Source: Liolophura sinensis (Eukaryota > Mollusca > Polyplacophora > Chitonida > Chitonidae). From it: a stretch of DNA of 64,000 nt. The notes below the pieces were generated by a model, which ran no database searches, had not been told where the DNA came from, and saw only the letters and a list, made by a program, of their open reading frames with translations. Positions 15,377 to 62,200 of the stretch are shown piece after piece. Position numbers and translations under genes: made by a program. The DNA is taken from the NCBI RefSeq assembly GCF_032854445.1, contig NC_088301.1, positions 42,839,116-42,903,115 of the forward strand, written 5' to 3'. Every line of letters starts with the position of its first letter. The stretch's first letter is position 1.

Positions 15377-18300
15377 CTAAAGAAAGAGGGGAAAAGATGA
15401 CGATAAATAAGAAAAACTAGACTACGAAACTATGGACAAGGTTTATCACATTAATTGTCGAAAGGTTTCTTGGGTTTACTTTAATATATGAGGAATTGGG
15501 AGATTCATGCTTTTCAAACCGTCGGTCAAGATTAATAATAGTCTCTTACCAAAATAATAGCTGACTAATTCGTATTGTTTCATTATAAATCTTGGTGAGT
15601 CACTGGTAAGCGTCAAGAACCCGAAAATCAGGAACAATCTAAAGGAACAACTTAATGCCAAGCACCAATGGTCAAAATACGTACTTCGTCAACGTAACCA
15701 TCGAAATTACTACCTCCAATCCCGATAAAACACGCCGACGGCATCATACCAGCTAAAAAAAATGTAAAGAAAAACATGTAAAAACATATCGCTTTATCCA
15801 GTGCGAATTATACCATGGCATGTTATGCTATATGCATTCTGATTCTAAAGTCATCTTTGTTAATAGACTCGTAAAATAGTAAAAACATAACCTGATTTCA
15901 TTATGTAAGATAGAAAGAAGTCTCCAGATGACGATCATCTGGTTCAGAGACTTACTTTTGAACGCTGCCGACCCAAAGCATTCTACACCATCCACGGTGA
16001 GTGTGAGCAGTTCGTTGAAAAAAACCAAGTCAAGATGATGAAATCCATATGGATTCTGAAAAGTAAATTTCAGAGGTCATGTGATATATCACATAGGTAT
16101 ATACATCTAGACTTGATATAAGCACACAGACTTTACACATTCACGCGAGAGAGTAACGGTCAAAACAGACATTCGTACCAGCTGTCAACGAAAATGGGCG
16201 TTCCGTGTCAAGAACCGCAAGGCCAATTCCCAAGACGACGTTTAACACAAATCACCAAACAGCTGTGAAAGCATACATAAAATATAAAATAAGGACGAAA
16301 TAATGCAAGACAAGCAGCGAACGGTTTTGATGTTGGAAAAATGCAAAGTATCTTCTAGAAGAATGAGTGAAAGCAGTATTCGTGTGCCATGGTTGTATAT
16401 AAGTTGTCGATAATATAATATGTAATTCAGTTACGGGTTAACCGGTGTTAGACACAGTTACGAAGCGGTGCCATTAAAGTAAAGACGAGTTTCTGGACAC
16501 CTTGTCCACATTTACTTACAAAAGAATTATACTCTTTGTAAAACTTAAAAAAACTTTTAGTTTTTGCAGTAACAACTTGTGACGTCGGTTGAAATCATCA
16601 CATAACACACAGGATCTAACAAATGCTACAAGGCGGAATATGAAAACGAAATATGCAGGGCTCTTCTGTTCTGTTCTCAGATAGGCCAGAATACGGTAAT
16701 AGATTTTAAAGTGGGTAACGTGCTGAAGAAATGAAAACAAAATATCAAACCAATGATCAGTTATCAAACCAATGATCACCTATCAAACTAATAACACAGT
16801 AGTTCGTAGGTGTTTTGGAAAAATATTATTTACATCATCTTACACACTACATCAATTGGATGCTTCTTCATGTTTAACAAATTACATAAGGTGTACAACT
16901 TACGCCGGATTTCGAGGAGCAGAATATCCTCCGGGAAATTTCCCTATCCATGAAAAACACGCTGTATTGCTCGCCATCTGGTCTGTAGTACATTGCTATT
17001 GTTTGTGGGCCACCTGAACAACGCTGGTTTGACAGCAGAACGATGTCCTCGTTGTGTTTGTGGCTTCCTTCAAGAACCATAAACCTTATTTGTATCTGCA
17101 GCTTTCCTCCAAAGTCATTTCCACCGCTGAACCAAAGTGGCATGCGACCTCGTCGAATCCTGGCGGCACCACCGTGAGCTCCTTCCATATTTGGTGCTAT
17201 GCTGACGGCTTGCCATGGTTCACGCCCCACACTAAATTCAAACTGGCTGTCGTCCTTGATCGAATGGTCAAATGTGGCATTGAAGATAGGAAAGCATGGT
17301 CCCGTCACCTGTTCCTGTATGACTAATTTTAAGAGGCACGTAAAGGGATGAAACTGATATACTCTCTGAGGCGGGTATAATAAATATAATCAAGAGCTCA
17401 ATATAAAGAAACGTATGAAATATATTTATTTACTTTAAACGCTCTTCTGTGAAATATTTAATAATATTTACCTGGTCTGCCTATTAAACTGTCAGGGTCT
17501 TTCGCTTCACCATAGTCACACCAACAGTTGGTTTGGTTCCACACTTGGTTCGGTGGACAACTTATTGGATTTTTAACCCAGACACCGTGAGCTCGTGCTT
17601 GATATTTGGTCTCATCGCCGGGGTAAGGACGGTGATGCGGACAGTTCGGGTCTTCTATGACCACCGGCCTTGCCTGACAAGAGCACCGCTGCTGGCTCCA
17701 CACCAGTGGGGGCTGACACGTGAAGTTATAGTACACACCAGCGGATAAAAGCTGGTATGTTTCCGGCTCACTCCCTGCTCGAAATCCTTCGCAGTCTAAA
17801 TATCGAAAAAAAAGTACCAAGAATATTGGACATGATCGAAACTGAACAAAAATTATCTTCAATTTGTTATGTCATTCTAGCAAAGCGTTATAAAATTAAA
17901 ATGTTCTAAAATTAAAAAGTGACTCACCTTCAGCCAATGACCCATGACCCACTGATTTCACCATGACTTAATACTGTGATTATGGCTTGGAACTGTAACC
18001 ACGGCTTACTGCTGTGATCATGCCTTAGTACTGTAACCGTGATTTACTGCTGTGATGATGGCTTAGTACTGTAACCATGACTTAGTGCTGTGACCATGGC
18101 TTATTAATGTAACCATGACTTACTGCTGTGATCATGACTTTGTACTGTAACCATGACTTACTGCTGTGGTTATGACTTAGTACTGTAACCGGGACTTACT
18201 GCTGTAATCATGGCTTAGTACAGTAGCCATGACTTACTGTTGTGATCGTGGCTTAGTACTGTAACCATTACTTACAGCTGTGATCGTGGCTTAGTACTGT

Positions 18301-21300
18301 AACCATGACTTACTGCTGTGATCATGACTTTGTACTGTAACCATGACTTACAGCTGTGATTATCACTTAGTACTGTAACCGTGATTTACTGCTGTGATCA
18401 TGGCTTAGTACTGTAGCCATAACTTACACTGGTGATCGTGGCTTAGTGCTGTAACCATGACTTATTGCTGTGATCATGGCTTAGTACTGTAGCCATGACT
18501 TACTGTTGTGACCGTGGCTTAGTGCTGTAACCATGACTTACTGCTGTGATCATGACTTTGTACTGTAACCATGACTTACAGCTGTGATTATCACTTAGTA
18601 CTGTAACCATGACTTACTGCTGTGATTATGATTTAGTACTGTAACCGTGATTTACTGCTGTTATTATGGCTTAGTGCTGAAACCACGATTAACTGCTGTG
18701 ATCATGGCTTAGCACTGTAACCATGACTTATTGTTGTGACTATGACTTAATACTGTAACCGTGATTTATTGATGTCATTATGACTTACTACTGTAACCAT
18801 GAATTAGTGCTGTGACCTTTACTTACAGTTGCGATCATGGCTTATTACAGTAACCATGATTTACTGCTGTGATCATGGCTTAGTACTGTAACCATGACTT
18901 ACAGCTGTGACCATGACTTATTACTATAACCATGATTTACTGCTGTGATCATGCCTTAGTACTGTAACCATGACTTACTGCTGTGGTTATGACTTAGTAC
19001 TGTAACCGGGACTTACTGCTGTGATGATGGCTTAGTACTGTAACCATGACTTATTGTTGTGACCATGATTTGTACTGTGACCGTGAAATACTGCTGTAAT
19101 CTTGACTTTGTACTGTAACTGTGACTTACGGCTGTGATCATGGCTTAGTACTGTAACCATGACTTACAGCTGTGACCATGACTTATTACTGTAACCATGA
19201 TTTACTGCTGTGATGATGGCTTAGTACTGTAACCGTGACTTACTGCTGTGATTATGACTTAGTACTGAAACCGAGACTTACTGTTGTAATCGTGGCTTAG
19301 TAATGTAACCATGACTTACTGCTGTGATCTTGACTTTGTACTGTAACCATGACTTACTGTTGTGATCGTGGCTTTGTACTGTAACCATGAATTAGTGCTG
19401 TGACCATGAATTAGTACTGTAACCATGACTTACTGCTGTGATCTTGACTTTGTACTGTAACTGTGACTTACTGTTGTGATCGTGGCTTTGTACTGTAACC
19501 ATGAATTAGTACTGTGACCATGAATTAGTACTGTAACCATGACTTACTGCTGTGATCATGATTTAGTACTGTAACCGTGATTTACTGCTGTGATGATGGC
19601 TTAGTACTGTAACCATGAATTAGTGCTGTGACCATGACTTATTACTGTAACCATGACTTACTGCTGTGATCATGGCTTAGTACTGTAACCGTGATTTACT
19701 GCTGTGATAATGGCTTAGTACTGTAACTGTGACTTACTGTTGTGACCGTGGCTTAGTACTGTAACTGTGACTTACTGTTGTGATCGTGGCTTAGTACTGT
19801 AACCATGATTTACTGCTGTGATCATGACTTTGTACTGTAGCCATGACTTACTGCTGTGATTATGATTTCGTACTTTAGCCATGACTTACTGTTGTGATCG
19901 TGGCTTAGTACTGTGACCATGAATTAGTATTGTAACCATGACTTACTGTTTTGATCATGATTTAGTACTGTAACCGTGATTTACTACTGTTATTATGACT
20001 TTGTACGGTAGCCATGACTTACTGTTGTGATCGTGGCTTAGTACTGTAACTGTGACTTACTGTTGTGACCGTGGCTTAGTACTGTAACTGTGACTTACTG
20101 TTGTGATCGTGGCTTAGTGCTGTAACTGTGATTTACTGCTGTGATCATGACTTTGTACTGTAACCATGCCTTACTGCTGTGATTATGACTTAGTACTGTA
20201 ACCGTGACTTACTGCTGTAACAATGACTTACTGCTGTGATCACGACATAATGCTGTGTCCATGGTTGTGATTATGATTTAGTCATGTGATCATTACCGAG
20301 CGTTGAAATAATTAGTGATATTGTAACCATAATCGTGTGTCCATAATTTAGTACTTCGTCACGTGACCATGATATGATCATGACCTTGTTCTACAGTAAA
20401 CTTAAGCTAATACTCTTAGTATGACTTGGTGATGTGACTGTCGCTATGATTTCGTTCTGTGGTCATAAATTGATGCTTTGACCCAATAATATTGTACTGA
20501 TTCGCTGATGTTCCCGTGACCAAGTGAAATTTCAGTGACTGATGTGATGATCACACTGTTCAATGATTTTCTCATGGTGCAATGATAACCCATATCTAGG
20601 AAATCTTTTTATGACCTTGAAACAAAATACCTGATAATAATTCTTGGTTTCCAGTTTGTTCTGACACGTAGATAACTTGCCACATGAATGTTAGAATTTC
20701 TTTCAGGAATGCAGGGTACATACATATGTTTTACTTACAGTTCGAACTTGTGAAATTTTCCACGGGTTCTACCGACTCTGTGACGACTACACCATTTTTT
20801 ACAATGAAATTCCCAGTGGGATTTCCAGGCTGGCCAGGCGCTGTTGTTCTTGCCACGGTTGTTTGCTCGGTCACAGGGTCAACTTCTGGTGGAGGAGCTG
20901 TTGAATATGATGGGTTAGTAATCGAATGCTAAAATGTCGGTGTATTTTGCGAATGAGTCTGAATAAATAACCTGGGTCATGCCTCTTAAAACAGACCGTG
21001 TCCTTGTTCTAATGTTCTAATCTTGTACCACCCTAAACTGCGAAAAGAAGACTTCCAAACAACATCTTGGAAGACTTGACCTTCATGAATGATACATACA
21101 TATATACTTCACACATCCTTACAATATGTGGTCGAAATCTTAAAATCAGTCGACAATACAGACATTCGTATACCATTCGTCAACATAATGGACGATCCAG
21201 ATAAAAATTCGCAAGACCAATTTTGGAGAAAAAAAAACTTCAACACAAACTACCGCAGAACTTTGAAAGCTTACAAAGTAAGAAATAATAGTGATATAGG

Positions 21301-22770
21301 TAAAACGAATGAATTAAATCAGAATCTTTATCTTGTGCCATGTTAATCAATAAGATGTCGATACTCAAAATGTGCATCTCACTTTCGCTGTAACTGATCA
21401 TAACTGGCATAAAAGCATACCTTCGGTTACTGGAGCATTGGGATCAAAGTCACACCAGCAGTTTTCCTGCACCCAGATTTGACCCGATGGACAAGATACT
21501 GGAGAATTGAGCCAAACGCCATGGGCACGCACCTCGAACTTCCTAGGATCATCTGGATATGGTCTGTGATGCGGACATTTAGGATCTGTTATTTCCACCT
21601 CTTTGGCCTCACAGGCACACTGCTCTTGGCTCCAAATTAATGGGGGTTGACAGGAAAAGTTGTAATATATATTCCCGGACAAGAGTTGGTAGGTTTCTGG
21701 TGTGTCCCCAGGTTTGAATCCGGAACAGACTGAAGAAAAATCGATTCACATCTAGATGCATTCACTAATAAATAATGTCACGACTGGTCGTAGAGGCTTC
21801 AGGAGGCACCATTTTGAAATTTGTGAGAGTGCTCAATATTTCAGTCAGTTGCTAGTGTAGAGAAATATATATATATATATTCTCCACACAAAACACCTTG
21901 TTTTGAAATCTAACACCACAACTTGTGTTGTTTTCATTCAACACTGGAGACCCGGGATCAAACCCAGGTCGGGTGAAACCAAAGACTTTAAAAATGGTAC
22001 TTGTTGCTGCCTTGCTTGGCGCTCAGCACTGAGTGCTTAGAGTACGGAAACAGGATGGGTTTCTCCTATTGTCAGTAAAATGTGACTCGGTGGGGGTCAT
22101 GTCTGGTGTCTTCGACATGATACTTAGTGCCGAAAGCACTTTGGCGGCATGGACTAGCCCTGCCACAAGAAGACACAGTATATGTACACACACCTAATGT
22201 CTTCTCGTCGTCATATGACTTAAAAATTGTTATGTACGACGTTAAACTCCAAGAATTCATTCATTCACTCAACAAAAGACTTTTGTTATCTGAACACAAA
22301 CATGTGTTAAACAAATGTGAAGTACACAAAGACATGTTTGTGTTACAAAATAATAAAACACAAACTTTTGTTGAATCAAAATGAGGTAATTTATGCATAT
22401 TATGTGTAATTATGTACAACATCTAACACATCCAACACAATAATTCTAACAACACAAGACCTTGTGTTAATTCAACACAAAATAGGGTTTTTCGAATATA
22501 ACACAAGATTTTTGTTGTAAAGAACACCAGTCTGTCTTCATAAAACCCAACCGTTTTTTGTGGGTCACTTGTGTGTTTGATCTTATTCATATTTTTTATA
22601 GCAGTCCCTGGATAATTCTGTGTAAATCATGCATGCTATACAATAATAAATAAAATGTTGTACTTTGGAAAGGTTTCTAATTACTCACAAGTTTGCTCCA
22701 CAGTTCCATCTTCCAAGGGCATGGATACACAAAGACCAACCAAAAGAATATTCAAACTTACAGCAAACAT
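15332..22770 (-). CDS. Gene C: secreted protein with two chitin-binding-like modules + LamG
   Basis: Eight coding exons on the minus strand: 22770-22689, 21729-21421, 20897-20739, 17795-17472, 17322-16904, 16055-15956, 15752-15685 and 15376-15332. They sum to 1,506 nt, so 501 aa with no frameshift. Order: signal peptide MFAVSLNILLVGLCVS, first chitin-binding-like module, a 53-residue Thr/Pro/Val linker, second module, and a laminin-G-like domain (PCFPIFNATF to FRRGCLEEEGPA). This two-module plus LamG layout is the one closest to Pif97, lacking only its VWA. The 2.9-kb intron between linker and second module is mostly minisatellite. Both duplicated exons and the linker are phase 1-1, so insertion kept the frame. 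The two modules could belong to separate genes, but neither half has both a signal peptide and a LamG end, which favours one gene. Confidence 0.83.
15685..15752 (-). CDS. Gene C exon 8: LamG segment
   Basis: The 68-nt exon, phase 1 in and 0 out, reads TGMMPSACFIGIGGSNFDGY then VDE before GTACGT. The length is identical to the matching exons of D and E. Confidence 0.83.
15956..16055 (-). CDS. Gene C exon 7: LamG segment
   Basis: The 100-nt exon, phase 0 in and 1 out, reads NPYGFHHLDLVFFNELLTLT then VDGVECFGSAAFK before GTAAGT. Confidence 0.84.
16155..16265 (+). repeat. Dispersed repeat copy (CAGACATTCGTA family)
   Basis: CAGACATTCGTACCAGCTG, TCAACGAAAATGGGCGTTCC, GAACCGCAAGGCCAATTCCC, AACACAAATCACC. 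It lies in a gene C intron. Confidence 0.4.
16904..17322 (-). CDS. Gene C exon 6: LamG core
   Basis: The acceptor AAATTAG gives VIQEQVTGPCFPIFNATF, then SVGREPWQAVS, GGAARIRRGRMPLWFSGGND, LQIQIRFMV, LLSNQRC and YSVFFMDRE, ending IFCSSKSG before GTAAGT. An acceptor 6 nt further on (ATACAG) would break the frame, so TTAG is preferred. Confidence 0.8.
17472..17795 (-). CDS. Gene C exon 5: second chitin-binding-like module
   Basis: Phase 1-1 exon of 324 nt, beginning DCEGFRAGSEPETYQLLSAG (first residue set by the splice). It contains LVWSQQRCSC and CPHHRPYPGDETKYQARAHG, then WNQTNCWCDYG. It is closest to the gene D module. Confidence 0.84.
17940..20560 (-). repeat. 19/38-bp degenerate minisatellite in gene C intron
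   Basis: The plus strand alternates two related 19-mers, ACTGTAACCATGACTTACT and GCTGTGATCATGGCTTAGT, so the basic unit is 19 bp with a 38-bp higher period. There are roughly 60 copies of the 38-mer in 17960-20300, fading out by 20560. Point divergence is high, with few length changes. It lies wholly inside the 2.9-kb intron of gene C and is therefore transcribed. Confidence 0.9.
20739..20897 (-). CDS. Gene C exon 4: Thr/Pro linker between modules
   Basis: After CAACAG (phase 1) it reads TPPPEVDPVTEQTTVARTTA, PGQPGNPTG, then VEPVENFTSSN before GTAAGT (phase 1). It is 53 residues with two N-glycosylation-type sites and a likely O-glycosylated spacer. The plus-strand 82-codon frame here is its shadow. 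Confidence 0.72.
21140..21290 (+). repeat. Dispersed repeat copy (CAGACATTCGTA family)
   Basis: It shares an ordered run of blocks with 16155-16265 and 63140-63250: CAGACATTCGTA, a TCAACxxAATGGxCGxTCC segment, CGCAAGxCCAATTT, and AACACAAxxxACC. Similarity is partial; no coding signal is visible. Confidence 0.4.
21421..21729 (-). CDS. Gene C exon 3: first chitin-binding-like module
   Basis: Phase 1-1 exon of 309 nt. FCSGFKPGDTPETYQLLSGN, then CQPPLIWSQEQCACEAKEVE, CPHHRPYPDDPRKFEVRAHG and IWVQENCWCDFDP. Cysteine spacing equals the second module and genes D and E. Confidence 0.84.
21885..21945. repeat. Left part of short-palindrome block
   Basis: ACAAAACACCTTGTTTTG and AACACCACAACTTGTGTTGTT form short inverted pairs. 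The same motif family resumes at 22262, right after a SINE. Confidence 0.6.
21946..22270 (+). repeat. SINE copy (family 2 relative)
   Basis: It has a B-box-like GGGATCAAACCCAGG, then TGGTACTTGTTGCTGCCTTG, CTTGGCGCTCAGCACTGAG, AGCCCTGCCACAAG, and the shared 3' end TCGTCGTCATATGACTTAAA...TACGACGTTAAACTCC plus a CATTCACTC tail. It sits in intron 2 of gene C, in antisense orientation to the gene. Confidence 0.8.
22262..22530. repeat. Right part of short-palindrome block
   Basis: Repeated hairpin-like pairs occur: AACAAAAGACTTTTGTT, AACACAAACATGTGTT, AACACAAGACCTTGTGTT and variants, each a 6-7 bp stem with a 2-4 nt loop. They are not identical, so this is an old or constrained block. Confidence 0.65.
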
Positions 22771-32810: not shown

Positions 32811-35800
32811 CTGCAAAGAAAAACCAAGCAAACATAACCAAGCGAAAGCAAAGCTAGGTAATGTTTATAGGTAAGAGCGAAAACCTTTTGATTAACAATA
32901 AATCTTTTGTGTGATGCCTCGTATACGCTTGTCTCGACGCCTAGATTTATGTACTTGACTGATGTATAATTGTACAAGACAATTTCACTTGTATGAGTCA
33001 GGTTTGGGGATGGAGAAAATTTAGTGCCAGATCACAAAAGGTGCAAACAAAAACCGTGAAGAACAAACTTTAACTGCTTAGCTTCGGACTTTGGAAATAT
33101 AAGTGTTATTAAATGGCCACTATAAGCTTCCTCAAAATTTTATAATTAAATGTAAACCCTTTAACCTGAAAGTTGAAGCATTGTTGGCCTAATAGATGCG
33201 CCCTAAATCTCGATAGCATATTTATATCTGCACATACCTCGTCAAAATATCCATCAAAGTTCCTTCCACCCAAGCCCATATAGCACTGGGTTTCTAAGAG
33301 CGGATCTGTGAAGTGAAATTAGAGATAAATTTTACTATATCTTCACTATAAACCAATATAGCTTTAAGGCAAACGTTTGTAGAACGGTATTCAAAGTCAA
33401 TTTTTAGACAAAAGGCTTTTTTCATAGAATTTTGTCAGAAATTTCGCCTCTACCTGGCAGGTTAATGGAAATGTCGAGTGAAGGGATTGCTGTTGGTTCC
33501 TTTTATTAATTAGCGAACGAAAGAAAACATTCAATATGATAAAATGTTAGAGATACTTACTATAAAAGATAGCTCCAAAGCATTCAACTTTGTCCACAGA
33601 AAGTGTCAGCAAGTCGTTGAAGAATACAAGATCAATGTGATGGAATGCATATGGATCCTGAAATTGAAACAAAAGAAAAAATAGACTCTAGCTTTCTTGT
33701 ACATCTAATGTTTTAATGGGCTATTGACCTTCGCACTTTCCAAAACTCTAAAACTTACCGAACCTTTGTGGTTACACCGTATGGTACGAGCGACTTTTGT
33801 ATCACGGAAGAAAACGGTGTATCTCTGGTCAACTGGGCGGTAGCTTATGGACACCGTCATGGGACCACCTGAACACTGAGGGTTCGAGAGTAGTACAATA
33901 TCCACACCATCCGGCACAGATCCTTTATTGACCATAAATCGAAACTGTATCTGTAACTTTCCTCCCAGATCGTTTCCGCCAGTGAACCATAGCGGCATTC
34001 TGCCGTTCTTTGCCCTCGCAGCACCCCCGTTAGCCCCATTGACAGAAGCCACACTGATAGCTTGCCAAGGCTCGCGTCCGACGCTGAATTGAAACGGACT
34101 GTCATCTTGGATACCCTCATCAAATGTGGCGTTGAACAGCGGAAAGCAGCTTGTTGGGTCTTCCGTTGGTATTTCTCTCTCATCTGAAAAGCATAAAATT
34201 TAGTCGAGACAGACGTTTTTATACCAATTATCAACCATTATGATGATTTTAGATCAATAATCGCAAGATTATAACTTCCAAAACATCCTTGAACACAAAT
34301 TAAGTACCATTCGTGGATTCCCCAGTTTTCATTGCCTGCAGGGCCTTGGTCACAACAAACTATCGACGACGCTCCTGTGGCCATTTGTGCAGTCATCTCT
34401 TTGAAGACCAAGCTGGTCCGTAACTTTTCCTGAGTACCCATTCCTCCTCTAGTGAGAGTACTCTCGACCATAATATAAGTCAAACGTTTTTGAGTAAGGC
34501 ATTAAACAAAAATAAAATTAAATCTAATCAATAAACAAAACGCAAATCATGACTGTATATAAGTTGCCGTCAATCAACATTATGTGTCTCGGTGTCTCGC
34601 ATTAATTGCAACTGTTCATATATCCAGCGCACAGAGGTTATTCAACCGATGCATGCCTAACCCGATTTTAGCGGAAGTAAACACATCAATGAATCAGAGT
34701 ATCAGGGGTTCTAAACACTCCCGCTTACAAATGGGATATTTATAACTAGCAAATCATCAGTATACTATCTGGTGTATGAGAATGGTCGATCTTGATAAAG
34801 ATTACCAACTTATGCATATGGTCATATTTGTACGAAAAATACACTAGAGCTATTTAGGGATGGCACAATTTGCAGGTATCGGGACACTGCTTTAAACTGC
34901 TGATATTTGATTTCACAAGTTTCACACAGATGTTACTGATGAAAACTTCGTCCAAAAAACAACGAGAAATTTCATACATGGATTACCCCTGTACATGTAT
35001 GTACATGTAAGAAAAAACGAAACAAATAAGAAATTTTTCGGTTAATCTTTCTGACGAACAGTAATATCGAATGTAGAAAAATCCCAAAATGTAACAAAAC
35101 GTCTACTCTTTGAGTGAGGTATGTCCAGGTTTTAAGAAGGAACCTGACATTTACTGATGACAACTTCTGAAAGACACATCAGATATTTATCAGGAATTTC
35201 AAAGTACCGTTATTAAGTTAACCGTTACACATTATCCAACTTTTCTACGTATACGATATATATATACCTGGTTTTTCTGTGGTAATGTTCAGAGACGGGT
35301 CGAAATCACACCAACACTTCTCTTGTATCCATATCTGTCTTGGTGGACAGCTAACGGCTTCGGGTATCCATACACCATGTGCTCGCACCTGGAACTTAGT
35401 TGGATTGCCGGGATAAGGTCGGTGGTGAGGGCAGTTAGGGTCCTCAATTACAACCGGCTTTGCCTGGCAAGAACATTGTTCCTGACTCCAAACGAGGGGC
35501 GGCTGGCATGAGAAATTAAAGTATGTACCACCAGATAAAAGTTGGTAGGTTCCAGGTTGACTGCCGGGGCGAAAACCATCGCACACTGAGGACAGAAAAC
35601 ATTCAGTAAGATAGCTGTTTGGAAAAGAAAATGTAGCCGACTGTGGCAATATATACCTTTACTTACATGCTAAGAGCGAAAGTGTATGAATGGCATACTA
35701 TTGTCAGACTCGAGGCTTAGATTGACCTAAAAAACGTCACTCTGAGAAAACGCCAAACGTCCCAACATGTAGAAGTAGAAGTTACTTGTCCCAACAAGTA

Positions 35801-38800
35801 GAAGTTACTACTAATTTCAACATAGATTAGTTGCATTTTAGCCATTAAAAAGCAAACATTTAGCATATAAATTTGGATGACAACATTTTACTCACGGGTG
35901 TCCTCTGTTACAAATAAAGAATCAGTCGTCTGTTCCAGTTCTGTTGTTGAAGATCCGACCGTGGATTCCCGTGAAGCACTAGTTACTTTTTCAGTGCTTC
36001 CATCCACTAACCCAGTTCTCTGGTCACTACTGCGGCCAGAGGTGGTTTCTACCCCAGAGGTGGTTTCTAACCCAGAGATTTCGGTTGGTATCACTTCCCT
36101 TGTAGTTTCGGTTGACATTTCTGTGCTACGTTCCGTTGCTGATACAGCTGGGGTTTCTGTCACAGGCTCTGGTGTTGTCACGGTCGATGTTTCTGCCAAA
36201 GGCTTTGATGCAGTCAGTGTTGTGGTTTCTGTGAAAAGCTCTGGTGTTGTTACTGTTGTGGTTTCTGTCACAGGAGCTGTTGTTCTTGCGGTTTTCGTTT
36301 CTGTTACAGGCTCTTTTGTTGCCTCGGATGTGGTTTCTCTCACAGGCTTTGGTGTTGTCACTGTTGTGGTTTCTGTTACAGGCTCTGGTGTTGTCACTGT
36401 TGTGGTTTCTGTTACAGGCTCTGGTGTTGTCACTGTTGTGGTTTCTGTCACGGGCTCTGTTATTGCCACCGTAGTTGCTTCTGTCACAGCCTCTGGTGTT
36501 GTCACTGTTGTGATTTCTGTCACAGACTCTGGCGTTGTCACTGTCATGGATTCTTTTACAGGAGCTGGTGTTGTCACGGATGACATTTCTGTCACAGGCT
36601 CTCTTGTTGTTTCTGTTGTGGTTTCTGTCACAAGCTCTGAGGTTGCCACCGTAGTTGTTTCCGTCACAGGCTCTGGTGTTGTCACTGTTGTGGTTTTTGT
36701 CGCAGGCTCTGGTGTTGTCACTGCCGTGGTTTCTGTCAAAGGAGTTTGTGTTGCCACGGTTGTGGTTTCTCTCACAGGAGCTGGTGTTCTCACTATTGTC
36801 ATTTCTGTCACAGGCTCTGGTGTAGCCACAGTTGTGGTTTCCGTCACAGACTTTAGTGTTGTCACTGTTGTGGTTTCTGTTACAGGCTTTGGTGTCGTCA
36901 CTGTTGTGGTTTTTGTCACAGGCTCCGGTGTTGTCACTATCATGGTTTCTGTCACAGAAGATGGTGTTGTCACGGTTGTCGTTTCTGTTACAGGCTCTGG
37001 TGTTGTCACTGTTGTGGTTTCTGTCACAGGCTCCGGTGTTGTCATTGTCATAGTTTCTTTCACAGGGGCTGGTGTTCTCACCATTGTCGTTTCTGTCACA
37101 GGCTCTTTTGTTGCCTCGGATGTAATTTCTGTTATAGGCTCTGGTGTTGTCACTGTTGTGTTTTCTGTCACTGGCTCTGGTGTTGCCACTGTTGTGGTTT
37201 CTGTTACAGGCTCTGGTGTTGTCACTGTTGTGGTTTCTGTCACAGGCTTTGGTGTTGTCACTGTTGTGGTTTCTGTTACAGGCTCTGGTGTTGTCACTGT
37301 TGTGGTTTCTGTCACAGGCTCTGGTGTTGTCACTGTTGTGGTTTCTGTCACAGCCTCTGGTGTTGTCACTATCATGGTTTCTGTCACTGGCTCTGGTGTT
37401 GTCACTGTTATGGTTTCTGTTACAGGCTCTGGTGTTGTCACTGTTGTGGTTTCTGTCACAGGCTTTGGTGTTGTCACTGTTGTGGTTTCTGTTACAGGCT
37501 CTGGTGTTGTCACTGTTGTGGTTTCTGTTACAGGCTCTGGTGTTGTCACTGTTGTGGTTTCTGTCACAGGCTCTGGTGTTGTCACTGTTGTGGTTTCTGT
37601 CACAGCCTCTGGTGTTGTCACTATCATGGTTTCTGTCACTGGCTCTGGTGTTGTCACTGTTATGGTTTCTGTCACAGCCTCTGGTGTTGTCACAGTTGTG
37701 GTTTCTCTCACAGGCTTTGGTGTTGTCACTGTTGTGGTTTCTGTTACGGGCTCTGGTGATGTCACTGTTGTGGTTTCTGTTACGGGCTCTGGTGTTGTCA
37801 TTGTTGTGGTTTCTGTCACAGCCTCTGGTGTTGTCGCTGTTGTTATTTCTGTCACAGCCTCTGGTGTTGTCACTATCATGGTTTCTGTCACTGGCTCTGG
37901 TGTTGTCACTGTTGTGGTTTCTGTCACAGCCTCTGGTGTTGTCACAGTTGTGGTTTCTCTCACAGGCTTTGGTGTTGTCACTGTTGTGGTTTCTGTTATA
38001 GGCTCTGGTGTTGTCACTGTTGTGGTTTCTGTTACGGGCTCTGGTGTTGTCACTGTTGTGGTTTTTGTCACAGGCTTTGGTGTTGTCACTATCATGGTTT
38101 CTGTCACTGGCTCTGGTGTTGTCACTGTTGTGGTTTCTGTCACAGCCTCTGGTGTTGTCACAGTTGTGGTTTCTGTCACAGGCTTTGGTGTTGTCACTGT
38201 TGTGGTTTCTGTCACAAGCTTTGGTGTTGTCACTGTTGTGGTTTCTGCCACAGGCTTTGGTGTTGTCACTGTTGTGGTTTCTGTTACAGGCTCTGGTGTT
38301 GTCACTGTTGTGGTTTCTGTCACAAGCTCTGGTGTTGTCACTGTTGTGGTTTCTGTCACAGATTCTTGTGTTGTGATGGTTGTGGGTTCTGTTGTTGAAA
38401 GAACAGTGGCTTCTCTTCCAGGTATTCCTGTGGTAACAGATATTATTTCAACGGGTTTTCTTCTTGTCACAGAGGAGACATTTACGAACTGGTCCTTGGT
38501 AGTGGCTTCATTAGCTGGGGCTGATATGCGATCTGTGGTAGCAAGAGCTAATGGTCTTGGGGGTGTTTCCGTTATCTTGGGCAACGTTATTGTTGGAAGT
38601 TCGGTCGTTTCAGGTGCCAGAGTGACGGGAATTCCAACTCTCTCAAGCGGTTTTTCTGTGTCGTCAGGGGCCTGTGTAGATACAGTTGATTGCGCCAAGC
38701 TTTTTTCTGTCACATAAACAGATGAGGTGACGAAATCAGGGCTGGCACTAGCTGAGTCCGTTTTATTTGTTGCTGCAGAATATCCGTTGGATGTGGCAAA

Positions 38801-39187
38801 TTCCACTGCCACTTTTGAGAGTGAGTTAGTTTTGGAATATTCAGCAATGGTTGTAAGGAGAACTTCGTTTCCTGTTGAAGGACTGATCGTATACCCATCT
38901 CTTGTATTATTGACACCTGAATGTCCTCCTTTGGTTTTGTTGTATTCCATTTCAGTGGACGCCCCGCCTTCGCTCTCACTTAATATTTCTTGTTTCACAG
39001 TTGACGTATTCGTATAGGTATTTTTTTCTCCCATGGTAACATTGTGCTTGTCTTGTCCTATAAGCGATTCGCCGCCAAGAGCATTACTTTCTACCTCCAA
39101 TAAGACTTTCGAATAGTTCCCAGCTGGCATACCCAGACAGATCCCTGACATGATAAGCACCAAGCTGAACGTTTCCGTGACTCTCAT
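32775..39187 (-). CDS. Gene D: giant mucin-like, chitin-binding-like + LamG secreted protein
   Basis: Coding exons on the minus strand: 39187-35896, 35585-35268, 34183-33759, 33658-33561, 33305-33238 and 32810-32775. The product is about 1,411 aa. Order: signal peptide MRVTETFSLVLIMSGICLG, a Ser/Thr-rich leader of about 240 residues, roughly 60 copies of a 12-residue repeat of type TTTVTTPEPVTE, a Ser/Thr/Glu tail, the chitin-binding-like module, and a LamG domain ending FRRGCLEGQ. The sum is 4,237 nt; exon 5 carries one surplus base in the AAAA at 33600-33603 (plus strand), leaving 1,412 codons. The repeat is Thr-rich with regular Pro and Glu, so it should be extended, heavily O-glycosylated and acidic. 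Its modules are closest to gene C. A role as a calcium-attracting matrix glycoprotein anchored to chitin is an inference. Confidence 0.84.
33238..33305 (-). CDS. Gene D exon 6: LamG segment
   Basis: The 68-nt exon, phase 1 in and 0 out, reads NPLLETQCYMGLGGRNFDGY then FDE before GTATGT. Confidence 0.84.
33561..33658 (-). CDS. Gene D exon 5: LamG segment with 1-nt insertion
   Basis: It reads DPYAFHHIDLVFFNDLLTL, then an extra T (the minus-strand TTTT complementary to 33600-33603) shifts the frame. Removing it gives SVDKVECFGAIFY and the required phase 1 exit before GTAAGT. As written, the frame hits TGA six codons on. Confidence 0.82.
33759..34183 (-). CDS. Gene D exon 4: LamG core
   Basis: After TTTTCAG (phase 1): DEREIPTEDPTSCFPLFNAT, SVGREPWQAIS, NGANGGAARAKNGRMPLWF, TGGNDLGGKLQIQFRFMV, LLSNPQC, QRYTVFFRDT, ending IRCNHKGS before GTAAGT. 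Same block order as gene C. Confidence 0.84.
35268..35585 (-). CDS. Gene D exon 3: chitin-binding-like module
   Basis: Phase 1-1, 318 nt: CDGFRPGSQPGTYQLLSGG, LVWSQEQCSCQAKPVVIED, CPHHRPYPGNPTKFQVRAHG, IWIQEKCWCDFDP. Eight cysteines in two similar four-cysteine halves. Confidence 0.84.
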
Positions 39188-39196
39188 GTTGGTTCC
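35896..39196 (-). CDS. Gene D exon 2: signal peptide and mucin-like repeat exon
   Basis: A single 3.3-kb exon. Acceptor TGTGCAG, ATG at 39187 (the frame stays open upstream through the intron, so an ATG at 39241 is not used). It ends EDT in phase 1 before GTGAGT. 1,097 codons: signal peptide, a varied Ser/Thr/Asn-rich leader, the 12-residue array, and a tail with LETTSGVETTSG. No cysteine-rich domain lies inside. Other long frames on both strands across the array are by-products of the 36-bp unit. Confidence 0.88.
36150..38390 (-). repeat. 36-bp coding minisatellite (12-aa mucin repeat)
   Basis: Plus-strand unit GTTTCTGTCACAGGCTCTGG followed by TGTTGTCACTGTTGTG, 36 bp, about 60 copies. The decoded unit is TTTVTTPEPVTE, with swaps to K (TPKPVTE), A (TPEAVTE) and TMIVTTP. 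The period is a multiple of three, so copy changes keep the frame. Central copies are nearly identical; outer copies are more diverged. Confidence 0.93.
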
Positions 39197-46797: not shown

Positions 46798-49700
46798 CTG
46801 AAAAAAATGTTTGTAAAGGAAAAGTTAACTACTGCTAAATATTAAAAAATAATCCGGTTTTTCAATTGAATATTCGTCTTTACAGAACAGAGCAAAAATT
46901 ACCTCGTCAAAAGCAAACTAGTCTGGAAGAGGAATATGTGCAATTTCCTTCTAAAGCGGTCTTACAACGACAGCTCATAAAAGAATGGAACGCCGATCTG
47001 GACGATACATGTCTAGATTCTCGTTTACAGGCACAACTTGTCATAATCCTTAACTGACAGAACAATCTTCTTGGTCCAAGATGGTATTTAGGACGAAGTA
47101 TGCAAACATTTAAATTGTTTGTATTTGTGAAAATTGTTTGTAGGCTGATTGTACAAAATAATATAGTTATAAAATTTGTATGCTAAATACTGCGTAAAGC
47201 TCGATCCGTTAATCAATTGCTCCAATCTCCTTCTGAGATAAAATACACAAAACCAACATCATCATTATTCATCATTTTGAAAACCGAATTTTCTATTTTT
47301 CTCGTGTCGATTCCACAAAGACATTTTTGACTTAAGTTAAAAAATTGAAATGTGATAATCAAGCTTATTTTTTGGCTTTAGAAATTAAAATGTTGTCCGC
47401 CTCATCAGTATTAGCTAATGACAAAAGTGTTCCAATTTCTACTTCCAGGGCATTAAACTACGCATTGTAAAGAGGTTTAAAATTTTGACTTAAGTCAGAA
47501 ATGGATTTTGTAATAGGCCCCTGGAACTTAAGCCAGTCCTGATTTTGTTCACATGCAGGAGGTATTTTAAAGGTATTTAAAATTATATTATTTACAAGTT
47601 AAATGAATTTGCCGTTCTATTTTCCAAATCTGGTTGACATATTTCATATCATATGATCGTGTATTAAGTTCCACGCAGTTCGCACAGCAAGTACAAGCAC
47701 ATTATTGGTTTACGTTCATGTGGTTTGAGTTTGAAGTTTTGAGTCTCGGCCTGCATATATCAAGACGTGTTTGCGAGAAAGAAATACAATTCCACTGGAA
47801 AGTATCCATAGCTTGCATGTGATAAATGTGATAACAATACTTGATGTGAGACTGAATACTTTCTTAAAAGGAGATTTTCTTAGTAATCAAGTATATTATA
47901 TTATCATTATGACGAGAATCAAAGTTAATCCAAGGCAAAGCTAGATCTCGTCATGCAATTGCTGCAAATTGTTGCCATAATGATAGTCATCGATCGTCAG
48001 TTATTCATGCCCGTCGACGTTTTTGACTTTTCTGGCGCGGAATGTAAGTTCATGACTCTCCAATTTTGCATACCTCGTCGATGTATCCGTCAAAATCACT
48101 TCCTCCTAAGCCCATGTAACACGGTGTCGCTCTGAGCCCACCTGATCAAGGAAACAGAATACCAGACTCAATGACGCATGTTGGTCTTACAGTGTTTGCG
48201 AATTTCTCTTTTATGTCTATGCGTATATATGTCAAATATGCGTTAATGTAACTCAAATCACCATACGTAGAACTGTGCAGTGGAAATTTTATGCAAATGA
48301 AAGTATCACAAGTATTTCATTAAACATCGAACAGGCATTTACCGTACCACGTCTTCGCGGGTCTCTTATAGTGACTTACTTTCAATGGATGTTTCTGTGA
48401 AACACTCAGCTTCATCTACATACAGGGATAAGACATTGTTGTATAGTACTAGATCGAAGAAATGGAATGCATAGGCATCCTGTGAATAAACGAAAAAATG
48501 ATCAAAAACATATAAAAGTTTGTTTGCTTAATAATATCAACATTTGATATTACTTCAGTCATGCAAGTCTGTATATATTTCAACAAGAAGGCATCTACAC
48601 TAGATTTACTGTGCACGTACAGATGGCACCTGTCATGACACCAGATCCAGTCACTGTATACTGGGTCAAGAGGATCAGCATATGCTGCACTTTAAAAATT
48701 ATACTGAGTACCAGACGAACATGCCAGAAGTTTCTATGGAAATTTTAACAATTTTAACAACTTTAACAATAACTGGGATTTTAGTTTATGAGAGCTCAAG
48801 ACTCACTGGATGGTTGGTGTTGCATGAATAGGTATGGGTTCTTGCTACCGTCCTGATTAGCACTGTGTATCTCTGATCACTCGGTCGATAGGTAATATCA
48901 ATATTTCTTGCTCCAGTATCACACTGTGCATTGGACAGGAGAGTCCTCTCACTGTCGTCAGGTGAAGTATTCAAAACTCGAAACCGAATTTGGATTTGGA
49001 GCTTGGTTCCGAGATCATTACTGCCCGTGAACCAAAGTACCACCCGTCCGTTCTTAATTCTGGCCGCACCTCCAGTGGTACCGCTAACGGACGCTTCTGG
49101 CGTCACAGCTGGCCACGGTTGTCTTCCCAAGGCACGGTTATATCCGCTGTCATCCTGGATACCCTTGTCGAAAGTTGCGTTCATCAGCAAAAAGCAACCC
49201 GACGCAAGTGCCCTTTGAAGAACTGCAAGATGGGATGAAGAAGAGAAATGAGAGCAGTAAAATCTGATATACTTACTCCAGCAGTCAACAAAAGACTGTT
49301 GTTTCAAATGTAGATACGCGAAATCATAATGTCCAAAGCAAATAATAAAATGACATTCTAAACAAAGAAACAGATGCATCAAAACTAACTAAATACACGT
49401 ACCAGAACACAGCCACTCAATCGAAATTGTTTATTGTGATCTTGTTTTAATTAACTCTTTATTCGGTATTGCCGATTCCATATTTGTATGCTTAAAACGC
49501 ACGAGATGAATTTGTATCGAATCCAAAACATTCTACAAACAAGGTCAATGTGTTACCTGTGAGTCCACCAGAAGCCCTGGGCTCTCCTGGACCCCATTCG
49601 CATCGACATTGGCTTTGGTCCCAAACGAGAAGTTCCGGGCAATTGAATGGAGTCTCTACCCATTCTCCACGTGCACGTTTTTGGAACTGTGTCGGTTTGC

Positions 49701-50725
49701 CTGGTATAGGCCGGTGGTGTGGGCAATCTGGGTCAGTTATTATAACAGGTTTAGCTTCACATCTGCAATTAGCTTGGGACCAAATCAGAGGGGTGACGCA
49801 GTTAAACTCAAAGGACACGCCACCAGAAAGGACCCTAAACGAGGTAGCGTTGTCTCCAGGGCTGTAGTTAGAACAATCTAAAAAAAGAGATCGAGTTGAA
49901 TTATTTCATCTACAAAGTCAAACCATGATTAGGCCTACATAACAATGCGTATCTTTGGTAGTGCCAATTGTCAATGTTAAAAATGCAAAGACATATAATA
50001 GATGATATTATTATTATAAGGTCAAATGTTTCGTTTCAGGAAACTTTTGTCAGCAGAAGCTTGTATAAAAACATGCTGTTGTAACTGAAGTAAATAACTT
50101 ATAAAACTTCGGAAACGCCATGTTACGCAAAAGGAGGTAGCATTTTTTGGTAACACGTAACCACATAAGGGTAAACGCACAGAATAAATGAATAAATTTT
50201 TAATATTTTTCTGAACAAATCTTGTACTTAAACGCTTTGCTAGTAAGAGAAAATCCTAATACAGAAAATTTTGGGCAAGTTGAACTTACGCCCCTTAAAT
50301 TACTCAGGAGCAATTTTTGTTTTACGTATTGGGTTGGAACTGGTGTTAAGATTTATGCCCGACTTAAGTTTAAGTACGCTGTTGAGCGGAGCAGGCTTGG
50401 TAACACATTTATGACATGAGCGTGACCTACCTTCCGGTGGTGTACCCCGGTCATCGATGCTGACAACAGGGGGAATAATAATTGGAGGACGTGTCTCTGT
50501 CGGTGAGGATCTGGGCGTGACCGTCTCGCCCTCAGGCACATTCTGGGCGGCGGTAGGTTCCACCACATTTTCTTGCTGACCTTGGGCAGAGGGAGGGTCC
50601 GTGACGATTATCTCCATCACCCCTTGGACCGATGCCGGCTCCGTGGCATTCCCATCAGTTCTGTTTTCCCCAAGATTGCAGTGGCATGCGCCCACCAGTA
50701 AGACCACTATGTACAACGTGATCAT
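46738..50725 (-). CDS. Gene E: secreted chitin-binding-like + LamG protein
   Basis: Coding exons on the minus strand: 50725-50431, 49877-49557, 49222-48807, 48479-48380, 48141-48074 and 46797-46738. They total 1,260 nt, 419 aa, with no frameshift. Order: signal peptide MITLYIVVLLVGACHC, an 82-residue linker rich in Pro, Glu, Thr and Gln with a loose repeat (EPASVQ, DPPSAQ, EPTAAQ), the chitin-binding-like module, and the LamG domain. The last exon is longer than in the paralogues (60 nt against 36-45), adding a charged tail VKDHRPGDPLK after FRRGC. It is the most diverged member of the C/D/E subgroup (GRQPW for GREPW, NVLSLYVDEAEC for LLTLxVDxVEC). Location extracellular; matrix role inferred. 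Confidence 0.84.
48074..48141 (-). CDS. Gene E exon 6: LamG segment
   Basis: 68 nt: GGLRATPCYMGLGGSDFDGY then IDE, between GATCAG and GTATGC. Confidence 0.84.
48380..48479 (-). CDS. Gene E exon 5: LamG segment
   Basis: 100 nt between TTCACAG and GTAAGT: DAYAFHFFDLVLYNNVLSLY then VDEAECFTETSIE. Confidence 0.84.
48807..49222 (-). CDS. Gene E exon 4: LamG core
   Basis: After CTTGCAG (phase 1): LQRALASGCFLLMNATF, ALGRQPWPAV, GTTGGAARIKNGRVVLWF, TGSNDLGTKLQIQIRFRV, LLSNAQC, YRPSDQRYTV, ending YSCNTNHP before GTGAGT (phase 0). Confidence 0.84.
49557..49877 (-). CDS. Gene E exon 3: chitin-binding-like module
   Basis: Phase 1-1, 321 nt: DCSNYSPGDNATSFRVLSGG, CVTPLIWSQANCRCEAKPV, CPHHRPIPGKPTQFQKRARG, LVWDQSQCRCEWGPGEP. 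It has the same eight cysteines as its paralogues. Confidence 0.84.
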
Positions 50726-55734: not shown

Positions 55735-57540
55735 TGCTTCAACCGTTATGTACAATGTGACTCTCTAGTGACCATGCATCACTTGTTATCTACAGGTGGG
55801 ACTCCCTAACGACAACACTTCACTGGTTATGCTCTACGCACGTATGTGGGAAGGTGGCCATACTTCACGGGTTATGTACTTGTGTGACTCTATAGGAAAA
55901 CACCGACTCTCCAGATAGTAAATCGTATCTGGATCCATATTTGTACAAAACGGTTTTCTCTATCGCAGACTTTACGACAAGAGGGATAGTTTTAATTATG
56001 ACATAGTAAATTATCCTTACTTACTATCTAGTGGCTATACTTCATTGGTTACGTACTTGTGTGATTCTATAGTGGGCATACTTCAACCGTTATGGACAAG
56101 TGTGACTCTTTAGTGACCATACCTCACGAGTTGTGTAGAAGTGTGACTCTCTAGTGGCCATACTTCACGGGTTATGTACAAGTGTAACTCTCTAGGGACC
56201 AAACATCAAGGGTTATGTACATGTGTGACTCTCTAGGGACCATACTCGGTTTATGTACAAATGTGACTCTCTAGTGGCCATACTTCACGGGTTATGTACA
56301 AGTGTGACTCTCTAGGGACCATACATCACAGGTTATGTACAAGTGTGACTCTCTAAGGGCCATACATTGCGGGTTATGTACATGTGTGACTCTCTAGGGA
56401 CCATACATCACGGGTTATGTACAAGTGTGACTCTCTAGGGACCATACATCACGGGTTATGTACATGTGTGACAATCTAGGGACCATACATCACAGGTTAT
56501 GTACAAGTGTGACTCTCTAGGGACCATATATCACGGGTTATGTACATGTGTGACTCTCTAGGGACCATACATCACGGGTTATGTACATGTGTGACTCTCT
56601 AGGGACCATACATCACGGGTTATGTACATGTGTGACAATCTAGGGACCATACATCACAGGTTATGTACAAGTGTGACTCTCTAGGGACCATATATCACGG
56701 GTTATGTACATGTGTGATTCTCTAGGGACCATAGTGTGACTCTCTAGAGACCATACTCGGGTTATGTCAAATGTGACTCTCTAGGGATCATACTTCATAG
56801 GTTATGTTCAAGTGTGACTCTCTAGAGACCATACTCGGGTTATGTGCAAATGTGACTCTCTAGGGACCATACTTCACAGGTCATGTACAAGTGTTACTCT
56901 CTAGGGACCATACATCACAGGTTATGTACATGTGGGACTCTCTAGGGACCATACTTCACAGGTTATGTACAAGTGTGACTCTCTAGGGACCATACTCAGG
57001 GTATGTGCAAATGTGACTCTCTAGGGACCATACTTTACAGGTTATGTATGAGTGTGACTCTCTAGGAACAATACTCAAATTATGTACAAAAGTGACACTC
57101 TAGTAGCCATACTTCACGGGTTATGTACAAGTGTTACTCTCTAGGGACCATACATCACAGGTTATGTACATGTGTGACTCTCTAGGGACCATAATCGGGT
57201 TATGTACAAATGTGACTCTCTAGGGAACATACTTCACAGGTTATGTACAAGTGTGACTCTATAGGGACCATTCTCGGGTTATGTACAAATGTGACTCTCT
57301 AGAGACCATACATCACGGGTTATGTACATGTGTGACTCTCTAGGGACAATAGTGTGACTCTGTAGAGACCATACTCGGGTTATGTACAAGTGTGACTCTC
57401 TAGGGACCATACTCGGGTTATGTACAAATGAGACTCTCAAGGGACCATACTTCACAGGTTATGTACAAGTGTGACTCTCTAGGGACCATACTCGGCTTAT
57501 GTGCAAATGTGACTCTCTAGGGACTATATTTCGTCGGTTA
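55735..57540. repeat. 41-bp minisatellite
   Basis: Unit ACCATACATCACGGGTTATG followed by TACATGTGTGACTCTCTAGGG, 41 bp, with a common 38-bp form in which ATACATCACGGG is shortened to ATACTCGGG. It is regular from about 56060 to 57530 and degenerate before that, with a non-repeat gap near 55905-56030. Roughly 40 units. It ends against a SINE tail (GCGACGTTAAACTCACTCAC). Confidence 0.9.
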
Positions 57541-59214: not shown

Positions 59215-62200
59215 AAAGTTCTACAATTCTGATGACTTACTGTACGGGGTCGTCGGAAAGTATAGGTGTTAGGCTCTACATTTCTGATGACTTACTGTCC
59301 GGGGTCGTCAGAAAGTATAGGTGTTAGGTTCTACATTTCTGATGACTTACTGTGCGGAGTCGTCAGAAAGTAGAGGTGTTAGGTTCTACATTTCTGATGA
59401 CTTACTGTGCGGGATCGTCGGAAAGTACAGGTGTTAGGTTCTACATTTCTGATATCTTACTGTGCGGGGTCGTCGGAAAGTATAGGTGTTAGGTTCTACA
59501 CTTCTGATGACTTACTGTGCGGGGTCGTCGGAAAGTACAGGTGTTAGGTTCTACATTTCTGATGACTTACTGTGCAGGGTCATCGGAAAGTATAGGTGTT
59601 AGGTTCTTCATTTCTGATGACTTAATGTCCGGGGTCGTCGGAAAGTATAGGTGTTAGGTTCTACATTTCTGATGACTTAATGTCCGGGGTCGTCGGAAAG
59701 TATTAGGTTCTACATTTCTGATGACTTACTGTGCAGGGTCATCGGAAAGTATAGGTGTTAGGTTCTACATTTCTGATGACTTAATGTCCGGGGTCGTCGG
59801 AAAGTATAGGTGTTAGGTTCTACATTTCTGATGACTTAATGTCCGGGGTCGTCGGAAAATGTTAGGTTCTACATTTCTGATGACTTACTGTGCGGGGTCG
59901 TCGGAAAGTATAGGTGTTAGGTTCTACACTTCTGATGACTTACTGTGCGGGGTCGTCGGAAAGTACAGGTGTTAGGTTCTACATTTCTGATGACTTACTG
60001 TGCGGGGTCGTCGGAAAGTATAGGTGTTAGGTTCTACATTTCTGATGACTTACTGTGCGGAGTCGTCAGAAAGTAGAGGTGTTAGGTTATACATTTCTGA
60101 TGACTTACTGTGCGGGGTCGTCGGAAAGTATAGGTGTTAGGTTCTATATTTCTGATGACTTACTGTGCGGGGTCGTCGGAAAGTACAGGTGTTAGGTTCT
60201 ACACTTCTGATGACTTAATGTCCGGGGTCGTCGGAAAGTATAGGTGTTAGGTTCTACATTTCTGATGACTTACTGTGCAGGGTCATCGGAAAGTATAGGT
60301 GTTAGGTTCTACATTTCTGATGATTTAATGTCTGGGGTCGTCGGAGAGTATAGGTGTTAGGTTCTACATTTCTGATGACTTAATGTCCGGAGTCGTCGGA
60401 AAGGGTTAGGTTCTACATTTCTGATGACTTACTGTGCGGGGTCGTCGGAAAGTATAGGTTTTAGGTTCTATATTTCTGATGACTTACTGTGTGGGGTCGT
60501 CGGAAAGTACAGGTGTTAGGTTCTACATTTCTGATGACTTACTGTGCGGGGTCGTCGGAAAGTACAGGTGTTAGGTTCTACATTTCTGATGACTTACTGT
60601 GCGGAGTCGTCAGAAAGTAGACGTGTTAGGTTATACATTTCTGATGACTTACTGTGCGGGGTCGTCGGAAAGTATAGGTGTTAGGTTCTACATTTCTGAT
60701 AACTTACTGTGCCGGGTCGTCGGAAAGTATAGGTCTAAGGTTCTACATTTCTGATATCTTACTGTGCGGGGTCGTCGGAAAGTATAGGTGTTAGGTTCTA
60801 CACTTCTGATGACTTACTGTGCGGGATCGTCGGAAAGTATAGGTGTTAGATTCTACATTTCTGATGACTTACTGTGCAGGGTTGTTGGAAAGTATAGGTG
60901 TTAGGTTCTACATTTCTGATGACTTAATGTCCGGGGTCGTCGGAAAGTATAGGTGTTAGGTTCTGCATTTCTGATGACTTAATGTCCGGAGTCGTCGGAA
61001 AGTACAGGTGTTAGGTTCTACTTTTCTGATGACTTAATGTCCGAGGTCGTCAGAAAGTATAGGTGTCAGGTTCTACATTTCTGATGACTTAATGTCCGGG
61101 GTCGTCGGAAAGTGTTAGGTTCTACATTTCTGATGACTTAATGTCCGGGGTCATCGGAAAGTACATGTGTTAGGTTCTACATGTCTGATGACTTACTGTG
61201 CGGGGTCGTCGGAAAGTACAGGTGTTAGGTTAAAGATTTCTGATGACTTACTGTGCGGAGTTGTTGGAAAGTACAGGTGTTAGGTTCTATATTTCTGATA
61301 ACTTACTGCGCGGGGTCGTCGGAAAGTACAGGTGTTAGGTTAAACATTTCTGATGACTTACTGTGCGGAGTCGTCGTAAAGTACAGGTGTTAGGTTCTAT
61401 ATTTCTGATAACTTACTGCGCGGGGTCGTCGGAAAGTACAGGTGTTAGGTTCTACATTTCTGATGACTTACTGTTCGGGGTCGTCGGAAAGTGTTAGGTT
61501 CTACATTTCTGATGACTTAATGTCCGGGGTCGTCGGAAAGTACAGGTGTTAGGTTCTACATGTCTGATGACTTACTGTGCGGGGTCGTCGGAATGTACAG
61601 GTGTTAGGTTAAACATTTCTGATAACTTACTGCGCGGGGTCGTCGGAAAGTACAGGTGTTAGGTTAAACATTTCTGATGACTTACTGTGCGGAGTCGTTG
61701 GAAAGTATAGATGTTAGGTTCTATATTTCTGATTACTTACTGCGCGGGGTCGTCGGAAAGTACAGGTGTTAGGTTCTACATTTCTGATGACTTACTGTGC
61801 GGGGTCGTCGGAAAGTACAGGTGTTAGGTTCTATATTTCTGATAACTTACTGCGTGGGGTCGTCGGAAAGTACAGGTGTTAGGTTCTACATTTCTGATGA
61901 CTTACTGTGCGGGGTCGTCGGAAAGTACAGGTGTTAGGTTCTACATTTCTGATGACTTACTGTGTGGGGTCGTCGGAAAGTATAGGTGTCAGGTTCTACA
62001 TTTCTGATGACTTAATGTCCGGGGTCGTCGGAAAGTGTTAGGTTCTACATTTCTGATGACTTAATGTCCGGGGTCGTCGGAAAGTACAGGTGTTAGGTTC
62101 TACATTTCTGATGACTTACTGTGCGGGGTCGTCGGAAAGTACAGGTGTTAGGTTAAGCATTTCTGATGACTTACTGTGCGGAGTCGTTGGAAAGTACAGG

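Follow-up and report, generated by a model that had tools for sequence, protein, structure and literature searches.

Gene D is one of five related genes, A to E, in a 64,000-nucleotide stretch of the genome of the chiton Liolophura sinensis (C7:42839116-42903115 in our contig naming). This stretch is called the window here, and coordinates without a contig name are positions in it. Our preferred reading, held with moderate confidence, is that gene D belongs to the LamG3/Pif-like family, that its linker exon has been expanded, and that its product is an acidic matrix protein of mucin type which is secreted and anchored to chitin. All parts of gene D lie on the minus strand. Genome-wide searches covered 609,464,459 bases in 632 contigs.

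The repeat exon of gene D

The start-codon exon of gene D (35896-39196; 1,097 codons plus 1 nt) encodes a signal peptide, a Thr/Ser-rich lead, an array of 12-residue units and an acidic tail. A preliminary description of this DNA had proposed a 1,097-codon exon at this place, and the start codon, the donor phase and the open frame upheld it. Read by eye, the borders consist of a CAG acceptor before 39196, an ATG at 39187-39185 and a GTGAGT donor from 35895. From ATG to donor the exon measures 3,292 nt, i.e. 1,097 codons plus one nucleotide (phase 1), and the frame extends over 1,124 aa from stop to stop. The corresponding first coding exons of the paralogues, counted with their signal peptides, have 27 codons in C, 32 in A, 98 in E and 147 in B, which agrees with the range of 27-147 residues given before.

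The putative signal peptide, MRVTETFSLVLIMSGICLGM (39128-39187), was assigned from its hydrophobic stretch and by comparison with the paralogues by eye; it is similar to those of A and C (..GGCLGMP, ..GLCVSMP) and is encoded by the same exon as the repeats. It is followed by a non-repetitive Thr/Ser-rich lead of 247 residues with seven N-glycosylation sequons (38387-39127). The array itself (36083-38386) consists of 64 units of 12 residues with the consensus TTTVTTPEPVTE and contains no Cys, and the exon ends in an acidic Ser/Thr-rich tail of 62 residues (35896-36082). The 12-mers thus account for 768 of the 1,097 codons, with 267 codons before and 62 after them. Tandem Repeats Finder reported 62.2 copies of a 36-bp unit at 36152-38392 (83% matches, 0% indels); the preliminary description had given about 60 units. 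The exact consensus was found in 15 of the 64 units, 39 distinct forms were present and the final two units were degenerate.

The domain is acidic, as had been proposed, and Thr-rich. The repeat region contains 42.8% T, 13.2% P, 14.3% E and 2.2% S (S+T 45.0%) and carries a net charge of -80. Each consensus unit holds two Glu, the first of which is replaced by Lys in 12/64 units. Mucin domains rich in Pro, Thr and Ser (PTS) are commonly defined by S+T of at least 40% and P of at least 5% per 100 residues, and all 776 windows of 100 residues between residues 221 and 1095 of D had such a composition.

Compared with the consensus DNA, units 2-35 differed at 0-5 positions per 36 bases and units 36-64 at 1-20. 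Four-unit blocks came back at a lag of 6-7 units, which points to unequal exchange within the array. No second copy of the array was found among the best 42 of 4,433 candidates; the other matches to the exon were Thr-rich with 15-36% identity. In Pfam the exon scored above the cut-off of Formin Homology (E 1.3e-10), a match that we discounted as low-complexity.

By itself the repeat argues only weakly for a coding exon, because an antisense frame on the plus strand is open across the array as well (948 aa, ending at 38717) and has a like excess of synonymous changes. Relative to the consensus, the sense frame showed 91 synonymous differences where 70.7 were expected and 145 non-synonymous ones where 163.8 were expected; one antisense frame showed 98 synonymous differences for 75.3 expected. 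Codon statistics did not separate sense from antisense in the array, and the counts are not independent, because the units share history. The sense reading is nevertheless favoured, because the antisense frame does not reach the non-repeat start of the exon, 39187-38718, the signal peptide is like those of A and C, splice sites are present and the five-exon model of gene D is open for 1,400 codons (phases 1, 1, 0, 1 and 0 after successive exons). Between D and C the proportions of non-synonymous and synonymous differences (pN and pS) were 0.15 and 0.86 for the chitin-binding exons and 0.24 and 0.82 for the LamG-like exons, with pS saturated in both. The ratio of non-synonymous to synonymous rates (dN/dS) could be computed for three of 16 paralogue pairs (0.15, 0.19 and 0.32), none of which involves D; dS was saturated elsewhere.

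The chitin-binding end and the family of gene D

The exon to which the repeat exon is joined in phase 1 (35268-35585) encodes a pair of CBM14-like (peritrophin-A) chitin-binding domains, and the LamG-like exons follow it in frame. An AlphaFold2 model of this CBM exon reached a mean predicted local distance difference test (pLDDT) value of 86.3. Searched with the model, Foldseek returned in its first 13 rows chitin-binding or CBM14 proteins, or proteins such as Aplysia EHEP, Der p 23 and Der f 23, which we take to carry these domains (best E 3.9e-3). In VIA-align the top ten rows were of the same chitin-binding kind (Z 3.9 to 6.3) and the next one was unrelated (3.4). All seven aligned CBM exons matched CBM_14 weakly, with a best E of 0.001. 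We concluded that the exon has a CBM14-like fold, and on the model it is predicted to bind chitin.

The LamG-like exons of D lie at 33759-34183, 33561-33657 and 33238-33305, the third ending in ..GYFDE; no exon of gene D was found past 33238. The LamG label was derived from the domain order, from the literature on LamG3 proteins and from a 28% match (E 0.006) to an exon on contig C10, downstream of the start of a VWA-bearing gene.

We provisionally assigned D to the LamG3 type of Pif relatives because no VWA domain fits into it. Between the signal peptide and the CBM domains there is no room for one, because a single exon runs to 35896 and is followed by an intron of 310 bp (35586-35895). No VWA was found on C7 among the best 150 of 320 candidates, which does not prove its absence near the cluster. 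Pif and BMSP proper are defined by a VWA upstream of the CBM domains; D lacks it and the C10 gene has it. LamG3 proteins are homologous to Pif and combine chitin-binding with LamG domains, but have no VWA (PMC10543319, in the part consulted). D likewise has chitin-binding domains, on the predicted fold, and no VWA, and it adds 768 residues of Ser/Thr- and Pro-rich tandem repeats of the PTS-mucin kind; the consulted description of LamG3 proteins mentions no mucin-type domain. The same source reports that one LamG3 is an oyster shell matrix protein and that LamG3 and Pif genes of the oyster share a chromosome.

The closest likenesses were found in four kinds of protein. In the part of PMC11291548 that we used, the PifN subfamily of Pif/BMSP is described as having a long insert, including poly-threonine, between the VWA and the chitin-binding domains, with LamG at the C-terminus. 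D shares with it a long Thr-bearing insert ahead of the chitin-binding domains, but lacks the VWA of PifN. Mucin-like shell proteins are represented by a T-rich nacre protein of Laternula elliptica and by mucoperlin of Pinna nobilis (PMC5105077, excerpt); compared by description, they are mucin-like as D would be, and one is Thr-rich, while that excerpt mentions a chitin-binding domain for neither. In Drosophila, nine of 23 characterised mucin-type proteins carry peritrophin-A domains, with digestive tract and salivary gland noted (PMC2515642, excerpt). They join PTS repeats to CBM14-type domains as D does, but are insect proteins for which the excerpt mentions no LamG domain. A targeted literature search found no description of a Thr-rich 12-mer mucin combined with a chitin-binding LamG3/Pif-type protein. 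The preliminary description had not recognised such a protein as described either, but the kind of protein is already known from LamG3/Pif, PifN, shell mucins and the chitin-binding mucins of Drosophila.

Proposed function and alternative explanations

In the reading that we favour, the linker exon would have expanded into a mucin-type domain within a LamG3/Pif-like gene, and O-glycosylation of the threonines would turn the repeats into a stiff, hydrated, polyanionic rod. Mucin-type rods rise by 0.25 nm per residue, and the repeats of D would accordingly span about 190 nm. Once secreted, the protein would be anchored to chitin by its CBM pair, and may coat or space the chitin in the matrix of cuticle, girdle or shell plates and keep water and calcium there. 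Models of mineral deposition on chitin in molluscs give Pif-type proteins a central part. In the chiton Acanthopleura granulata, transcripts of Pif and Pif-like peak in the girdle and Pif is lowest in the radula (PMC7850002, in the part seen). A direct role of D in mineral is possible, but we put it forward tentatively, as the weakest step of the proposal.

Several results weigh against this reading. The main threat comes from splicing: by a crude count of matches to a nine-position consensus, phase-1 donors with 6/9 matches occur at 39088, 38980 and 38917, compared with 7/9 at the true donor. Splicing from 38980 would skip the repeats, and such weak alternative donors could, judged from their sequence, yield a short, paralogue-like form without them. 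Within the array no phase-1 donor matched 6/9 or better by this count. The selection signal within the repeat was modest and common to an antisense frame. At the chitin-binding end, the domains of D stayed under the Pfam cut-off (sub-threshold CBM_14 in single-exon searches), Foldseek gave no match at E 0.001 and every Z of VIA-align was below 8; 'CBM_14-like' domains counted in Pif/BMSP proteins also fall below the Pfam cut-off, according to the available part of PMC11291548. For the LamG-like exons of D, Pfam gave no LamG match, the AlphaFold2 model had no usable fold (pLDDT 31) and the LamG-like alignment, searched as a profile against PDB, returned unrelated chance matches and no LamG. Among seven relatives scanned only paralogue C reached Laminin_G_3, at an E of 0.019, below the cut-off. 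The preliminary description had called the exon fused to a chitin-binding/LamG protein; the in-frame CBM14-like end stood, whereas the LamG label was confirmed by neither Pfam nor fold. This label is weaker than the chitin-binding one, and we therefore speak of putative, LamG-like exons. As to expression, mantle levels are not high for many LamG3 and Pif genes (PMC10543319, same part), and a Pif-like protein was among the highly expressed radula transcripts of the chiton Cryptochiton (PMC6351634, in the part seen). Because of the latter, girdle or plate is not the sole candidate site for D.

The alternative that survives best, although we regard it as somewhat unlikely, is that D works like the peritrophin-type mucins of insects and is unconnected with mineral, as a mucin that binds chitin in gut, mucus or radula or protects cuticle in general. 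The proportion of Drosophila mucins with peritrophin-A domains, as reported in the excerpt cited above, speaks for it. Chitin-binding proteins with long S/T-rich stretches also look common in the chiton genome: among the best 150 of 244 candidates, at least eight of the 149 listed CBM_14 matches (matches, not genes) lay in open frames of at least 450 aa, and five of these frames had S+T of 44%, 36%, 29%, 32% and 39%, three frames being partial. The LamG-like exons and the gene cluster argue otherwise, as they group D with genes of LamG3/Pif type, which include shell-matrix members.

It is less probable still that the array arose by near-neutral expansion of a linker in which changes of length are tolerated, or is often spliced out, so that the working protein is short and resembles its paralogues. 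The variation of the equivalent exon from 27 to 1,097 codons within one cluster would fit this, as would the 6/9 donors ahead of the array and the recurring four-unit blocks with their sign of unequal exchange. However, 64 units have been kept without an in-frame stop, the sense frame has its synonymous excess, albeit one common to the antisense frame, and the Pif-type gene on C10 likewise retains a giant insert of Thr/Pro type at the corresponding place.

We give little weight to the possibility that the repeat is an unglycosylated, acidic, calcium-binding linker in which Glu and not glycans matter. The two Glu per consensus unit and the net charge of -80 over 768 residues are consistent with it, but a Thr content of 42.8% and regularly placed Pro match the make-up of O-glycosylated domains, and Lys occupies the position of the first Glu in 12/64 units. 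We find it scarcely credible that the exon results from misassembly or is antisense to the true coding strand: although the plus strand is open for 948 codons, that frame stops before it reaches the part of the sense exon that encodes the signal peptide, in-frame exons common to the paralogues follow the sense exon, and HiFi reads, with a mean of 8.3 kb at 14X (PMC11068029, in the part seen), are longer than the 2.3-kb array.

Other giant Ser/Thr-rich frames and the paralogues

The Pif-type gene on C10 (C10:27227402-27210155, minus strand) has a signal peptide (27227402-27227315), a VWA exon (27226744-27226196; Pfam VWA E 4.7e-21), a giant repeat exon (27223067-27214125) and a CBM_14 exon (27213855-27213664; E 3.4e-9). 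Its repeat exon measures 8,943 nt, or 2,981 codons, with 29.8% T, 16.6% P and a net charge of -134. From the signal peptide to CBM_14 every modelled junction was in phase 1, and the 3,257 codons contained no stop. A LamG-like exon at C10 27210296, on the same strand about 3 kb downstream of the CBM_14 exon, is linked to the gene by position. The repeat is a Thr/Pro unit of 141 bp (47 residues), unlike the 12-mer of D. Giant Thr/Pro repeats thus precede CBM domains in at least two genes, as D and the VWA gene on C10 both have them.

We propose, as a tentative generalisation, that Pif/LamG3-type genes of chitons may have, just ahead of the CBM, a recurrent birthplace of mucin domains, that the 12-mers and the 47-residue units arose independently, and that a class of giant chitin-anchored mucins may form part of the plate, sclerite or cuticle matrix. 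If the family repeatedly gains giant polyanionic mucin domains in one slot, the origin of shell mucins becomes a question at the level of the gene, which can be tested within this genome and across chitons; such recurrence would be a more interesting result than D alone.

Two further CBM_14 loci on plus strands were observed beside long frames. At C10:9367805-9401701 an uninterrupted frame of 11,299 codons (S 20%, T 24%), one of the five frames mentioned above, comes after CBM_14, and at C13:7387304-7390498 and beyond CBM_14 is followed by TTPEP repeats, with a listed open frame of 2,944 aa. At C4:17857768-18070987 dozens of VWA exons lie on one strand at a spacing of about 1.8 kb.

The paralogues of D in the window are A, C and E on the minus strand and B on the plus strand. 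Paralogue B (11106-13402) has a signal peptide and Pro-rich linker, a CBM pair and two LamG-like exons in a model of 417 codons without stops. Paralogue E (48074-50725) has a signal peptide/linker exon, a CBM pair and LamG-like exons, and its model of 400 codons is also free of stops. In paralogue C (15685-22770) the signal peptide and linker are followed by two CBM pairs, i.e. four domains, and by LamG-like exons, over 434 codons without stops; the intron between its CBM pairs contains a tandem array of 60.7 copies of 38 bp (17960-20264). Paralogue A (1577-3925) starts with a signal peptide and linker, its CBM and LamG-like exons change frame and its last exon was weakly matched (E 1.3); the frame changes reflect either a pseudogene or assembly errors. 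Outside the window, LamG-like exons were also found 3 kb to its left, at C7:42835477, and at C7:43.90 Mb, C10:7.55 Mb and C10:27.21 Mb. At C10:7552064-7555466 (minus strand) the LamG-like exon is downstream of a 356-aa frame of PYPPVDPK-type repeats, another repeat type near the family of D. The window also contains two other tandem arrays, one of a 41-bp unit at 56047-57528 and one at 59218-63095, in which a 55-bp unit is repeated 71 times with 90% matches.
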